Positions 1 to 4,387 of a stretch of 20,867 nt of DNA are shown here, piece by piece; position 1 is the stretch's first letter, and the number at the start of each line of letters is the position of its first letter. The stretch lies in the IMG/VR virus record IMGVR_UViG_3300032285_002576, positions 1 to 20,867 of that record; one strand, 5' to 3'. The notes beneath the pieces were generated by a model. The model was not told where the DNA came from. It was given only the letters and a program-made list of their open reading frames with translations, and did not search any database. The DNA comes from a virus. The translations under genes and the position numbers were made by a program.

Positions 1-585
1 CTTCAAATAGAGCACCACCCAGATGAGTCTAAATCTAGGGGGCAATACCTGCCGCTATTAGAAGAAGCGGCAAAAGAAAACTATTACGATGAAAGATGCG
101 CTTTTTACTATGCGCGTGAACTCTATTTTTATTCAAGATATGAAGAAGCTGCTGAAGAATTTAAGCGTCATTTGTCTTTGCCAAGCTCTGTATGGAAACC
201 TCAAAGAGCGGCATCCTACAGATACCTAGGAGAATGTGATGCCGATAATGCCGAACTTTGGTGGTCTAAGGGGTACGAAGAAGACCCCATTCGTAGAGAA
301 TGCGCAGTAAAGCTTGCTGAGCTTTACTATACCCAAGGGGAATGGCAAGACTGCAAAGAGTGGGCTCTTAGGGCATTAGAGGCCAAAGATAAGGCTTTAG
401 ACTACTTTTGTGAGCCTTGGGCTTGGGGATCGCTTCCGCATGATTATTTAGCTATAGCAGCGTATAATTTGGGGGAATACGGATTGGCTAGTGAACAAGG
501 CAAAATAGCCCATAGTTTAGACCCGACTAGTGAACGCCTAGCCGTTAACATTAGTCATTACACCGCAAAGTTACAGGAGCAATAA
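1..585 (+). CDS. Probable glycosyltransferase, C-terminal TPR part (5' end outside window)
   Basis: The reading frame is open from base 1, so the gene starts upstream and only about 194 C-terminal residues are seen. They form helical TPR-like repeats: YYDERCAFYYARELYFYSRY near the start, then EEAAEEFKRHL, then segments with W, A, L and Y at TPR spacing, ending in GEYGLASEQGKIAHSLDP. The pattern (DER..FYYARELYF, RREC..KLAELYYTQGEW, EPWAWG..PHDYLAIAAYNLG) matches the TPR tail of family-2 glycosyltransferases common in phages and bacteria. The catalytic GT-A domain is not in the window, so the activity is inferred. A TTG at 172 could be taken as a start, but the same frame and fold continue upstream of it. 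The stop overlaps the next ATG (TAATG). The product may glycosylate a virion or host-surface component. Confidence 0.75.
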   Translation, partial: LQIEHHPDESKSRGQYLPLLEEAAKENYYDERCAFYYARELYFYSRYEEAAEEFKRHLSLPSSVWKPQRAASYRYLGECDADNAELWWSKGYEEDPIRRECAVKLAELYYTQGEWQDCKEWALRALEAKDKALDYFCEPWAWGSLPHDYLAIAAYNLGEYGLASEQGKIAHSLDPTSERLAVNISHYTAKLQEQ

Positions 586-1830: not shown

Positions 1831-2634
1831 ATGGAAACACATAAGGCGCTATACTTCTTACACATACCAAAAACTGGTGGTATGACTATAGGCGTTGGTA
1901 TCGCTAGATTTTTAAATAGAAATGGTTTAGCAAAGTATCCGCCAACACCACCTCCTCATCCGGATGTAGATGAGGGATATGCGTTTATTCAAGGACACCT
2001 AGGAAGATACCCAATTTCAAGGGTTCCCAACTTAACTGTTGCTACTTTGGTAAGAGATCCTTTAGATCGCGCTATCAGTAACTTTTTGTATATATACAAC
2101 CGAGTTTTGGTAAATAGGCCTGAATACGCTGCTATTGAAAAAATGGAAGATAAACTAAAGTTTTACCTATTCGACGATGTTTACTATACGGCGCATAGAA
2201 ATATTCAATCTAAGTTTATCTGCTCTGAACCTGAAACAAATAACTTTAGAAATATCCCTTCAGATATAGAAGTAGATTATAGAAATAGGTCTAAGCAGTG
2301 GTACTTGGTAGATGTTGATCTAAGCTTTGATTTAGTCAAGAGCTATATTGATTCTTTTGAGATTGTTAATACTACTAATAAAGTTCCTGTATTTCTTGAC
2401 CGAATAATCACTTGGTTTAACCAAAACTACCCAAATCTAAGCGTAAAGGAACTAGAGGGGGGCTTAACCCATATAAACGCCTCTTTAGTTGAAGACAATA
2501 ATCAATCCTACACAACTGTAGATCTTAAAGATAAGCTAACTGATGAAGACATAGCTAAATTTTTAGACCTAAACAGCATAGATTTTGAGCTTTATGAGTA
2601 CGTCTATAACCGTGAGGTCCAGGAAAATGTCTGA
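1831..2634 (+). CDS. PAPS-dependent sulfotransferase (Sulfotransfer_2-like)
   Basis: The 267-residue product carries both cofactor motifs of PAPS-dependent sulfotransferases. The 5'-phosphosulfate loop is HIPKTGG at residues 11-17, and the 3'-phosphate-binding motif is RDPLDRAISNF at residues 75-85, with Arg75 and Ser83 in the expected positions. Length and motif spacing fit the family that sulfates carbohydrate chains (heparan-sulfate or chondroitin type), so the acceptor is more likely a glycan than a small molecule, but it cannot be read from sequence. No signal peptide or membrane segment is seen, so it should act in the host cytoplasm. It is first in a cassette with an APS kinase that could supply PAPS. 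Translation is probably leaderless; the end overlaps the next gene by 8 bp. Confidence 0.88.
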   Translation: METHKALYFLHIPKTGGMTIGVGIARFLNRNGLAKYPPTPPPHPDVDEGYAFIQGHLGRYPISRVPNLTVATLVRDPLDRAISNFLYIYNRVLVNRPEYAAIEKMEDKLKFYLFDDVYYTAHRNIQSKFICSEPETNNFRNIPSDIEVDYRNRSKQWYLVDVDLSFDLVKSYIDSFEIVNTTNKVPVFLDRIITWFNQNYPNLSVKELEGGLTHINASLVEDNNQSYTTVDLKDKLTDEDIAKFLDLNSIDFELYEYVYNREVQENV

Positions 2635-2869
2635 TGAAAAGCTTTCCCCGTTACAAAGATATAAACAAATGCTCGGGGACACTCGGCCTTGGGACGTATT
2701 AAATCCTGCTACCGAATGGGTTGATGATGAAAAATCAAGCGAGAGATTTTCAATCTGTAAAGCTTGTCCAGAATTGATTAAACTTACCTCTCAATGCAAA
2801 AAGTGTGGCTGCATGATGAAGGTAAAGACCAAAATGGCAGAGGCTACGTGTCCGATTGGAAAATGGTAA
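2627..2869 (+). CDS. Small six-cysteine zinc-ribbon protein (DUF6171-like)
   Basis: The start chosen is the ATG at 2627, preceded by an AGG-containing site and overlapping the sulfotransferase stop; an earlier ATG at 2585 would add 14 residues read out of frame inside the upstream gene. The 80-residue protein has a helical N-terminus (LQRYKQMLGDTRPWDVLNP) and a metal-binding C-terminal half with Cys at 44, 47, 57, 60, 62 and 75 (CKACP, CKKCGC, CPIGKW). This is the layout of small zinc-ribbon proteins found in many T4-like phages and resembles DUF6171; function is unknown. It sits between the sulfotransferase and a dioxygenase, with a TAATG overlap to the latter. Confidence 0.75.
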   Translation: MSDEKLSPLQRYKQMLGDTRPWDVLNPATEWVDDEKSSERFSICKACPELIKLTSQCKKCGCMMKVKTKMAEATCPIGKW

Positions 2870-3432
2870 TGAATATAAAAGAACCAGAAATTATTAAAAC
2901 AGTTCTACCACCAGAAACGTTAAAAAAGCTACAACAGCACGCTATGAACATGTGGTCAAATTCAGGCACCTTTGATAAGGCTTTTGGCCGGCATCAGTGG
3001 GCCAACACGCCCGTATTAAGCGAGGTGCACGAGATGCTTACAGACCTTGCTAAAGAACATTTTGAATCTGAAACGCTTAAGCCTTCTTGGTGCCTAATGG
3101 GTATCTATGAAACATCAGAAGCAAAACTTTGGAAGCATAAAGACGATAATGCATGTACCTATCATATAAATTTTTGCGTATTTCAAAAAACTCCATGGGA
3201 ACTTTGGGTAGAGGGAAAGCCATACCTTTTAGAAGAAAACGATGCCCTTATGACCTACGGCAATGATCAGGAACATTGGAGAGAAGAATTTCCGGATCCA
3301 GAAAAAAATTTAGTTTGCAATGTATTCTTCTTTTATTGTGAGCCAGATCATTGGTACTTTACTAAAGGCCCTACATATCTTGAGGTAATTAGAGGACACG
3401 TAACAGAAGAAGATTGGGCTGCAAAACAATGA
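2869..3432 (+). CDS. 2-oxoglutarate/Fe(II)-dependent oxygenase-like protein
   Basis: The ATG at 2869 overlaps the upstream stop (TAATG) and begins the conserved region (MNIKEPEII), giving 187 residues; an ATG at 2794 would add 25 residues that only read through the zinc-ribbon gene. The protein has the facial triad of the jelly-roll dioxygenases: His90-x-Asp92 (WKHKDD) and a distal His136 in EHWREE, with a strand-rich core between (CTYHINFCVFQKTPWELWVE) and the typical acidic turn before the distal His (LLEENDALMTYG). Phages often carry such prolyl-4-hydroxylase-like enzymes. The substrate is unknown; within this cassette it might hydroxylate a protein or sugar before or after sulfation. It ends in an ATGA overlap with the APS kinase gene. 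Confidence 0.75.
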   Translation: MNIKEPEIIKTVLPPETLKKLQQHAMNMWSNSGTFDKAFGRHQWANTPVLSEVHEMLTDLAKEHFESETLKPSWCLMGIYETSEAKLWKHKDDNACTYHINFCVFQKTPWELWVEGKPYLLEENDALMTYGNDQEHWREEFPDPEKNLVCNVFFFYCEPDHWYFTKGPTYLEVIRGHVTEEDWAAKQ

Positions 3433-4181
3433 TTATTCAGATTATTGGTTTGCCTGGATCTGGTAAAACAACCTTAGCTACTGAGCTTGCTAGTCGTATA
3501 AACGCGGTTCACCTTAATGCAGACTATGTTAGATCAACAGTTAACTCTGATCTTGGTTTTACACCTGAAGATCGCAAAGAACATGCCCGCCGTATGGGAG
3601 AGATGGCCCGCCTATTGTCTGGACAGGGCTTAGATGTAGTAGTCGACTTTATATGCCCAACACAAACAACTCGTGAGGCATTTGGTAAGGCGGATATCCT
3701 GGTCTGGATGGATACCATTAAAGAAGGTCGTTTTGAAGATACCAATAAGATGTGGGAAACTCCTACCATCTTTGACTACAAGTTTGAGACCTTTGACGCA
3801 AATGCCCACGTAAATAACATTATCTTTACATCCAATCTTCATGATTGGAAAGCACCTACAACTTTGATGCTAGGGCGCTACCAACCATGGCACGAAGGAC
3901 ATCATGCCCTATACCATGAGGCCAAAGAACGTACCCAACAGGTAATGTTGGGTGTTCGTAATACGCATGGAACTAGCGAGAAAGATCCACTTAGCTTTGA
4001 TGAGGTTAAGGGGTATATTTCAGCAGATCCAGCTATGTCTGGGGCTATGGTCGTAAAGATGCCTAACATTACTAACATTGTCTATGGTAGAGATGTTGGA
4101 TACAAGATTGAGCAAGTAGATCTGGGGGCAGATATACATGCGATATCCGCTACTCAGAAGCGTAAGGAAATGGGCCTATGA
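3429..4181 (+). CDS. Adenylylsulfate (APS) kinase fused to HxGH nucleotidyltransferase domain
   Basis: The start is the ATG at 3429 (ATGA overlap), which begins at the first strand of the P-loop domain; an ATG at 3414 would add five residues. Residues 1 to about 115 look like APS kinase (CysC): Walker A GLPGSGKT (7-14), NADYVR (30-35) in place of DGDxxR, NSDLGFTPEDR (39-49), then HARRMGEMARLL and ICPTQTTREAF (75-85). This enzyme phosphorylates APS to PAPS. Residues about 143-250 are a separate Rossmann-type nucleotidyltransferase: GRYQPWHEGH (149-158) with the HxGH signature, and ISATQKR (239-245), the second family motif, as in NMN or cytidylyltransferases. It lacks the QxRNPxHxxH motif of ATP sulfurylase, so it is probably not the APS-forming enzyme. 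It supplies the likely PAPS donor for the sulfotransferase upstream. Confidence 0.8.
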   Translation: MIIQIIGLPGSGKTTLATELASRINAVHLNADYVRSTVNSDLGFTPEDRKEHARRMGEMARLLSGQGLDVVVDFICPTQTTREAFGKADILVWMDTIKEGRFEDTNKMWETPTIFDYKFETFDANAHVNNIIFTSNLHDWKAPTTLMLGRYQPWHEGHHALYHEAKERTQQVMLGVRNTHGTSEKDPLSFDEVKGYISADPAMSGAMVVKMPNITNIVYGRDVGYKIEQVDLGADIHAISATQKRKEMGL

Positions 4182-4387
4182 ATGTAACAAAACAGCGGTC
4201 TGGGGTAAAAGCCATTACTTGGAGAGTAGTTGGTACAGTAGATACTTTTGTCTTGTCTTTATTGATTACCCATAAACCAATAACCGCAGCCTCAATTGCA
4301 GGGTTTGAGGTATTAACAAAAACCGTACTGTACTACTACCATGAGCGGGTTTGGAACAAGGTTGAGTGGGGCAGGGAACAAGTCTAA
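4178..4387 (+). CDS. DUF2061 family small membrane protein
   Basis: The 69-residue protein carries the family hallmarks: VKAITWRVVGTVDTF (about 10-24), a hydrophobic helix (VLSLLIT), and a second segment IAGFEVLTKTVLYYYHERVWNKVEWGR. It should span or sit in the inner membrane with one or two helices. The molecular function of DUF2061 is unknown. In cellular genomes it is often found near sulfate-activation genes such as APS kinase, which fits its place here directly after the APS kinase gene with an ATGA overlap. It is the last gene of the cassette; 34 bp separate it from the next gene, which has its own strong ribosome binding site. Confidence 0.8.
   Translation: MNVTKQRSGVKAITWRVVGTVDTFVLSLLITHKPITAASIAGFEVLTKTVLYYYHERVWNKVEWGREQV

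Follow-up and report, generated by a model that had tools for sequence, protein, structure and literature searches.

How does a phage that encodes a sulfotransferase obtain the activated sulfate that such an enzyme transfers? The question is raised by the viral record IMGVR_UViG_3300032285_002576, which we analyzed whole, as one window of 20,867 bases. The virus is a contractile-tailed phage, with sheath, tube, tape-measure, and baseplate genes spotted by eye in the list of open reading frames (ORFs). On its plus strand, five consecutive genes, each pair overlapping by 1 to 8 bases, occupy positions 1831 to 4387. They encode a sulfotransferase, a small zinc-ribbon protein, a 2-oxoglutarate-oxygenase-like protein, a kinase fused to a nucleotidyltransferase (NT) domain (here called kinase-NT), and a small membrane protein of the DUF2061 family. 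A first-pass annotation had read the run as a sulfation cassette in which an adenosine 5′-phosphosulfate (APS) kinase makes the sulfate donor 3′-phosphoadenosine 5′-phosphosulfate (PAPS) from APS supplied by the host. The answer we favor, and consider likely, is that kinase-NT is a miniature PAPS synthetase in which a domain resembling nicotinamide mononucleotide (NMN) adenylyltransferases (NMNATs) serves as the ATP sulfurylase, feeding neighboring glycan sulfotransferases.

The kinase-NT gene (3429..4181) encodes 250 residues, and the structure model of the protein has a predicted local distance difference test (pLDDT) score of 92.4. Its N-terminal domain (residues 1 to 139; 3429..3845) is an APS-kinase-like P-loop kinase: residues 2 to 84 match Pfam APS_kinase (PF01583) with an E value of 4.6e-17 (62.9 bits; cutoff, 21.1), and the motifs GLPGSGKT (the P-loop), NADYVR, and LGFTPEDR are present. 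The best match was 2yvu (E = 5.8e-13), and in the VIA comparison, the kinase half was nearest to APS kinases (Z of 17 to 18 at 28 to 30% identity) and next to gluconate kinases (Z of ∼15 at 15% identity). This part of the first-pass annotation therefore stands. What it overlooked is the remainder of the chain (residues ∼143 to 250), an HxGH nucleotidyltransferase fused C-terminally to the kinase (domain boundaries, residues 140 to 250; 3846..4181). The NT domain matches CTP_transf_like in Pfam (E = 1.1e-3), and the full-length protein matches a PHROG family labeled “kinase” (E = 5.8e-68). This fusion makes the NT domain the leading candidate for APS formation, and the first-pass view that the phage has to draw its APS from the host is probably mistaken. 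A model in which the kinase half alone boosts PAPS from host APS, with the NT domain having another or a regulatory role, draws support from the specific match to the APS kinase fold, and host APS is plausible because 11 of 14 control genomes carry an APS kinase. We nevertheless regard it as unlikely, as the NT motifs (GRYQPWHEGH, YGRDVGY, and ISATxxR in the window) are kept as HxGH, YGR-VGY, and ISATxxR across 34 diverse phage proteins with identities as low as 38%, and as the bacterial contexts described below also speak against it.

To which enzymes is the NT domain related? Against PDB profiles, it aligned with NMNATs (E = 3.3e-9) over the first half only (positions 8 to 77 of 113). Like NMNATs (NadM, NMNAT-Nudix), it has the first half of the fold, the GRxQPxHxGH motif, and an ISxTxxR-like C-terminal end. 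Unlike them, it has the new invariant motif YGR-VGY and lacks about 25 mid-domain residues (11 profile positions against 36 residues in MJ0541), a stretch that in NMNATs carries the nicotinamide-stacking Trp. No whole-domain NMNAT match exceeded the cutoff (best NCBIfam score, 27.5 versus 397 bits). The ATP sulfurylase family PF01747 did not appear among the 25 Pfam families shown at an E value of ≤1 for the window, and no ATP sulfurylase was among the PDB profiles listed for the NT alignment. ATP sulfurylases at the top of the VIA list were rejected as evidence on the NT domain; their ranking is uninformative here because the match is limited to their APS-kinase-like C-terminal domain (1m8p, residues 397 to 573). 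Kinase-NT could instead be a NadR-like NAD enzyme that joins a nicotinamide riboside kinase to an NMNAT, with sulfotransferases adjoining by chance in a cargo region. NMNATs are indeed the closest solved relatives of the NT domain, and in phage Bhz60, kinase-NT follows a NADAR-domain gene. However, the NT domain lacks residues where NMNATs continue, the nearest matches of the kinase are APS kinases, and a NAD enzyme leaves both the sulfotransferase enrichment and the cys operon (see below) unexplained, which makes this reading very improbable.

The architecture has a precedent in the animal PAPS synthetases (PAPSS1/2), also single chains with the APS kinase first and a domain of the nucleotidyltransferase superfamily second. 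The kinase halves of PAPSS1 (1x6v_B) and kinase-NT superpose, and both domains align over 242 residues, but with a root mean square deviation of 15.8. Kinase-NT differs from PAPSS1/2 (∼620 residues) in having only 250 residues and an NMNAT-like second domain that is outside the ATP sulfurylase family by sequence. In the PAPS synthetase reading, the NT domain would adenylylate sulfate (ATP + sulfate → APS + pyrophosphate), and the N-terminal kinase would phosphorylate APS to PAPS, pulling the unfavorable first step. DUF2061 may assist sulfate activation as a small membrane protein. With this PAPS, the neighboring sulfotransferases, which are exchanged between phages, would sulfate a glycan that most likely belongs to the virion or to the host surface, to the presumed benefit of the phage. 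A dedicated PAPS supply together with a sulfotransferase at one locus is also found in the rhizobial NodPQ-NodH system of Nod factor sulfation, in which NodPQ makes PAPS and NodH transfers the sulfate to a lipochitooligosaccharide; unlike kinase-NT, that system uses the CysD/CysN ATP sulfurylase. PAPS synthesis with a sulfotransferase is thus of a known kind. What is unexpected is the NT domain, which has a fair chance of representing a new class of ATP sulfurylase. In the open-licence literature, we found no paper on phage PAPS synthesis together with a sulfotransferase and none on an NMNAT-like ATP sulfurylase.

At least 588 stretches of viral contigs encode a relative of kinase-NT, among at least 600 stretches that matched the search pattern, and 139 of 143 hits to a second query, from phage DLP_6, encode a relative; judging from these matches, kinase-NT is very common in phages. 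The NT domain is also present, as a gene or a domain, in 82 of 147 genomes of the SAR11 family, either as a separate gene beside the kinase or as a kinase fusion, and a kinase match lies within 1 kb of it in about 49 genomes (hand count). As the two are fused in phages and neighbors in bacteria, their arrangement argues that kinase and NT work together; this persistence of the NT domain is also difficult to reconcile with a kinase that acts on host APS alone. The presence of the NT domain in SAR11 genomes is associated with that of Sulfotransfer_3 (45 genomes with both, 37 with NT only, 19 with the sulfotransferase only, and 46 with neither; odds ratio, 2.9; P = 0.0025), an association that is confounded by genome completeness and relatedness and that, although supportive, was given no weight. 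In two SAR11 loci, pyruvate-kinase-like genes adjoin fused kinase-NT (L320:3034-4014 and L324:3531-4496), and similar genes adjoin canonical ATP sulfurylase (Sat) genes elsewhere (L420:355-1773, L434:6932-8278, and L436:9099-10424), so that kinase-NT and Sat look interchangeable beside this gene.

To characterize the neighborhood of kinase-NT in phages, we used three locus sets: the 80 nearest loci, the 158 loci of both query sets, and 160 loci whose 2,600 ORFs were clustered. The DUF2061 gene of the window (4178..4387) had been recognized correctly (PF09834; E = 1.9e-20; 73.5 bits; cutoff, 23.1). DUF2061 occurs near kinase-NT in 72 of the 80 nearest loci and within 600 bp of it in 88 of the 158, and by these counts, the conserved core is kinase-NT plus DUF2061. 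A search of phage records with DUF2061 gave one match, with no kinase listed nearby.

In cellular genomes, DUF2061 can be found in two sulfate-activation contexts. Four Mesorhizobium symbiosis (nod) plasmids have the gene order nodI, ABC permease, sulfotransferase, DUF2061, cysD, and cysN; two other plasmid matches (H16 and H22) had no sulfate genes nearby. Among 289 sampled alphaproteobacterial genomes, 59 contain DUF2061, and 3 of 30 alphaproteobacterial DUF2061 loci (G247, G378, and G475) have an adjoining kinase and NT, in the order sulfite reductase, cysH, DUF2061, kinase, and NT (by Pfam for G247 and G475). The G247 operon is preceded by genes resembling those of siroheme synthesis. The operon CysH has cysteines in the pattern of APS reductases, and an enzyme of this type depends on an ATP sulfurylase for its substrate, APS. 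Searches of the 840,118 bases read of G475 with four queries for Sat and two for CysD found nothing, and CysN queries gave only ∼30% matches of the translation-GTPase kind. The NT domain is therefore the only visible APS source within these 840 kb of G475, though not in G247, and a G475 operon with no other visible source again speaks against a kinase fed by APS from elsewhere. In two Vibrio genomes, DUF2061 is repeated in tandem in one protein (L333:5497-5901 and L334:5190-5594) whose gene adjoins valyl-tRNA synthetase-like and acetyltransferase-like genes; no sulfate genes were seen at these two loci.

Sulfotransferase genes are concentrated at phage kinase-NT. Across the 158 loci, their density per 100 kb of flank was 49 at up to 0.3 kb from kinase-NT, 7 at 0.3 to 1.5 kb, and then 0.3, 2.8, and 0.4 further out; 55 loci have one within 1.5 kb, and 37 have one within 100 bp. 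These genes form five sequence clusters of several dissimilar families. Based on one or two representatives each, Pfam matches were above the cutoff for cluster 73 and below it for clusters 18, 25, and 41, and the window’s own cluster (35) was identified by its Sulfotransfer_2 match and fold. A hidden Markov model (HMM) of cluster 18 reaches cluster 73, the HMM of the window family reaches a Pfam-supported protein, and four single sulfotransferase genes near kinase-NT score above the Pfam cutoff. By BLAST, a sulfotransferase of the window’s type was found close to the kinase in just 5 of the 80 nearest loci. The proposed coupling of donor synthesis to transfer is thus well supported in related phages, via several sulfotransferase families more than via the window’s own type. 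In some loci, a sulfotransferase domain directly upstream of kinase-NT is fused to an N-terminal phage domain of the MAHFAEVDENN type (L018:1788-2630, L029:509-1351, and similar cases).

The association extends to distant cultured phages. In four members of the Casjensviridae (Bhz60, Suzuki, AhaSv, and Clavibacter 33), whose kinase-NT is 38 to 42% identical, the gene two before kinase-NT, annotated as hypothetical, matches Sulfotransfer_4 (E = 8e-6 to 9e-4; above the cutoff in three of the four). In Bhz60, a Stenotrophomonas phage, the NADAR-domain gene (L082:5553-5996) overlaps the start of kinase-NT. Closer to the window, we compared relatives of its tail sheath gene (35 listed of 80 fetched): kinase-NT, DUF2061, and the sulfotransferase occur together in 4 loci, and 31 of the 35 listed have none of the three, 26 of these 31 extending 5.2 kb upstream (hand count). 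One locus (L220) has the differing order kinase, DUF2061, and sulfotransferase. All 17 kinase-less sheath-relative records that were searched whole lacked kinase-NT. As our sulfotransferase HMMs were built from families first noticed in kinase-NT loci, which biases any absence from kinase-less loci, we used Pfam PF03567 and PF13469 to compare presence. Such a sulfotransferase was found anywhere in 11 of 33 kinase-NT records and in 0 of 17 records without kinase-NT (P = 0.009 by Fisher’s test), with several of the 11 lying far from the kinase and the 17 kinase-less records all belonging to one phage group.

These neighborhoods also bear on whether kinase-NT is an auxiliary sulfur assimilation gene, a viral cysC that aids sulfate reduction by the host. 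Viral cysC genes, annotated from the APS kinase domain, probably include the kinase-NT type, and they have been described as serving sulfate assimilation: freshwater phage cysC has been read in this way (PMC10914622 and PMC9529941, parts consulted) and was reported to be transcribed in a lake (PMC10914622). Term searches of the main text of both papers found no mention of a sulfotransferase; phage sulfotransferases have been reported elsewhere with unclear function (PMC10580990, in the part consulted). The occurrence of kinase-NT in a bacterial cys operon also favors an assimilatory role. However, CysH, CysI, CysD, and Sat were found within ∼6 kb in none of the 160 phage loci (CysN queries matched at the kinase only), and sulfotransferases cluster at kinase-NT. 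We consider the assimilatory reading improbable for phages. As the canonical sulfate-activating and -reducing genes are absent from these loci, phage cysC of the kinase-NT type probably serves sulfation rather than assimilation. If so, sugar sulfation may be widespread among aquatic phages, whose “sulfur assimilation” cysC genes would have been misread.

What would the window’s sulfotransferase (1831..2634) modify? As the first-pass annotation noted, both PAPS motifs are present, HIPKTGG as the 5′-phosphosulfate loop and RDPLDRAISNF as the 3′-phosphate motif, and R75, P77, and S83 are invariant across 17 aligned relatives. Of the three Pfam families proposed for the run, APS_kinase and DUF2061 were matched above the cutoff, and Sulfotransfer_2 fell slightly under it (E = 4.3e-4; 20.9 bits; curated cutoff, 22). 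The AlphaFold model (pLDDT, 86.8) superposes best on heparan sulfate 2-O-sulfotransferase (4ndz; Z of 16.1 over 217 residues at 3.4 Å) and also on 6-O-sulfotransferase (5t03; Z of 14.5 over 197 residues), with guanylate kinases reaching only ∼8 to 9. Because of these superpositions, the enzyme, as modeled, is a complete sulfotransferase, of the glycan type by its fold. At the edge of the window, an ORF with an open 5′ end (1..585, plus strand) encodes the C-terminal tetratricopeptide repeat (TPR) part of a protein that matches phrog_13126 (positions 222 to 360 of 394; E = 2.5e-20). The resemblance is to the TPR end of phage glycosyltransferases of this family, and the truncated protein might, tentatively, be a glycan maker. 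Together, the fold of the sulfotransferase and this glycosyltransferase-like fragment suggest a glycan as the acceptor. A search of phage records with the window sulfotransferase gave no match. One homologue (L291:6001-6804) has an in-frame stop codon within the matched stretch.

The transferred group might also be something other than sulfate. A cytidine diphosphoramidate kinase is known, the APS-kinase-like Cj1415 of Campylobacter capsule phosphoramidate synthesis, and kinase-NT could make another 3′-phospho-nucleotide-activated group, e.g., phosphoramidate, that is moved by sulfotransferase-like enzymes. Two SAR11 loci (L441:1954-8430 and L444:78-5589) resemble methyl-phosphoramidate synthesis and combine APS-kinase-like and sulfotransferase-like genes with those for a phosphoenolpyruvate synthase-like kinase and a nucleoside triphosphate (NTP) transferase. 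Yet the NTP transferase in L441 is of the MobA type, with no HxGH domain, and both the operon of sulfite reductase, cysH, DUF2061, and kinase-NT and the DUF2061 genes of the nod plasmids point to sulfate. For kinase-NT, we find a phosphoramidate-like product distinctly improbable.

Several observations weigh against the PAPS synthetase reading. The kinase misses the cutoff of the NCBIfam equivalog TIGR00455 (62.2 versus 138.7 bits), covering positions 20 to 107 of 184, and has no counterpart to the last, C-terminal third of that profile; the NT domain is related by sequence to NMNATs and not to ATP sulfurylases. No recognized sulfotransferase lies within 1.5 kb in 103 of the 158 phage loci, and when kinship is considered, one is near in 20 of 49 locus clusters at 90% identity and in 5 of 27 at 80% (single linkage). 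DLP_6, a fifth full-length phage match, has a metallophosphatase and a 2-oxoglutarate oxygenase near kinase-NT and no sulfotransferase among the genes tested. Many of the SAR11 copies have catabolic or housekeeping neighbors and no sulfotransferase close by, and because the phosphoramidate-like loci combine APS-kinase-like and sulfotransferase-like genes, a group other than sulfate may be transferred in some places. Nor is DUF2061 tied to sulfate: at 27 of the 30 alphaproteobacterial loci, no gene of those tested for lies within 1.5 kb, and DUF2061 is listed among iron-responsive genes of Caulobacter (PMC3751524, in the part consulted), a role broader than sulfation. Furthermore, G247 has one Sat gene in 799,698 bases, which lies next to a pyruvate-kinase-like gene within a polysaccharide locus, and the idea that the operon-bearing bacteria have no ATP sulfurylase other than the NT domain fails for this genome. 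Finally, given its APS-reductase-type cysteines, the operon CysH does not need the kinase.

Taking these points into account, we see slightly better than even chances for a broader proposal. The NT domain would be a second, independently evolved ATP sulfurylase, derived from NMNAT-like nucleotidyltransferases, and would form with the kinase a PAPS synthetase smaller than any known. It would serve sulfate assimilation in one or more streamlined alphaproteobacteria, and aquatic phages would spread it as the donor half of a modular glycan sulfation system into which varied sulfotransferases are plugged. If kinase-NT genes of phages serve sulfation as we propose, statements on viral effects on sulfur cycling would change, and phage glycan sulfation could be tested in the cultured Stenotrophomonas phages Suzuki and Bhz60. 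For at least one streamlined alphaproteobacterium, the NT domain would be a candidate for the ATP sulfurylase that is otherwise missing, and DUF2061 would gain a first lead, toward sulfate activation.

The two remaining genes of the run fall outside the conserved core. The first-pass annotation had included a zinc-ribbon protein and a dioxygenase in the coupled unit. The overlaps bear out the coupling within the window, and DUF2061 is conserved, but the zinc-ribbon gene is near kinase-NT in 8 of 85 loci and the oxygenase-like gene in 10 of 85, and both were rejected as parts of the module. Their identities are weakly matched as well. The zinc-ribbon protein (2627..2869) is DUF6171-like, under the Pfam cutoff (24.2 versus 27 bits), and matches phrog_13558 (E = 2.8e-15). 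The oxygenase-like protein (2869..3432) matches Pfam 2OG-FeII_Oxy_2 (E = 0.097) and phrog_2954 (E = 3.2e-14), both weak as evidence for a dioxygenase; the “ferrochelatase” label of the latter family looks wrong. A promoter and terminator scan gave counts no higher than those in shuffled sequences. NodU-like carbamoyltransferase genes recur near phage kinase-NT (cluster 21; 19 phage loci) and were also seen at L100:7044-8546 and L325:6746-8530, placing them in phages and in surface polysaccharide loci. Upstream of the run, the protein encoded at 1126-1818 contains long Pro-Thr repeats, which give rise to mirror-image repeat ORFs in other frames.

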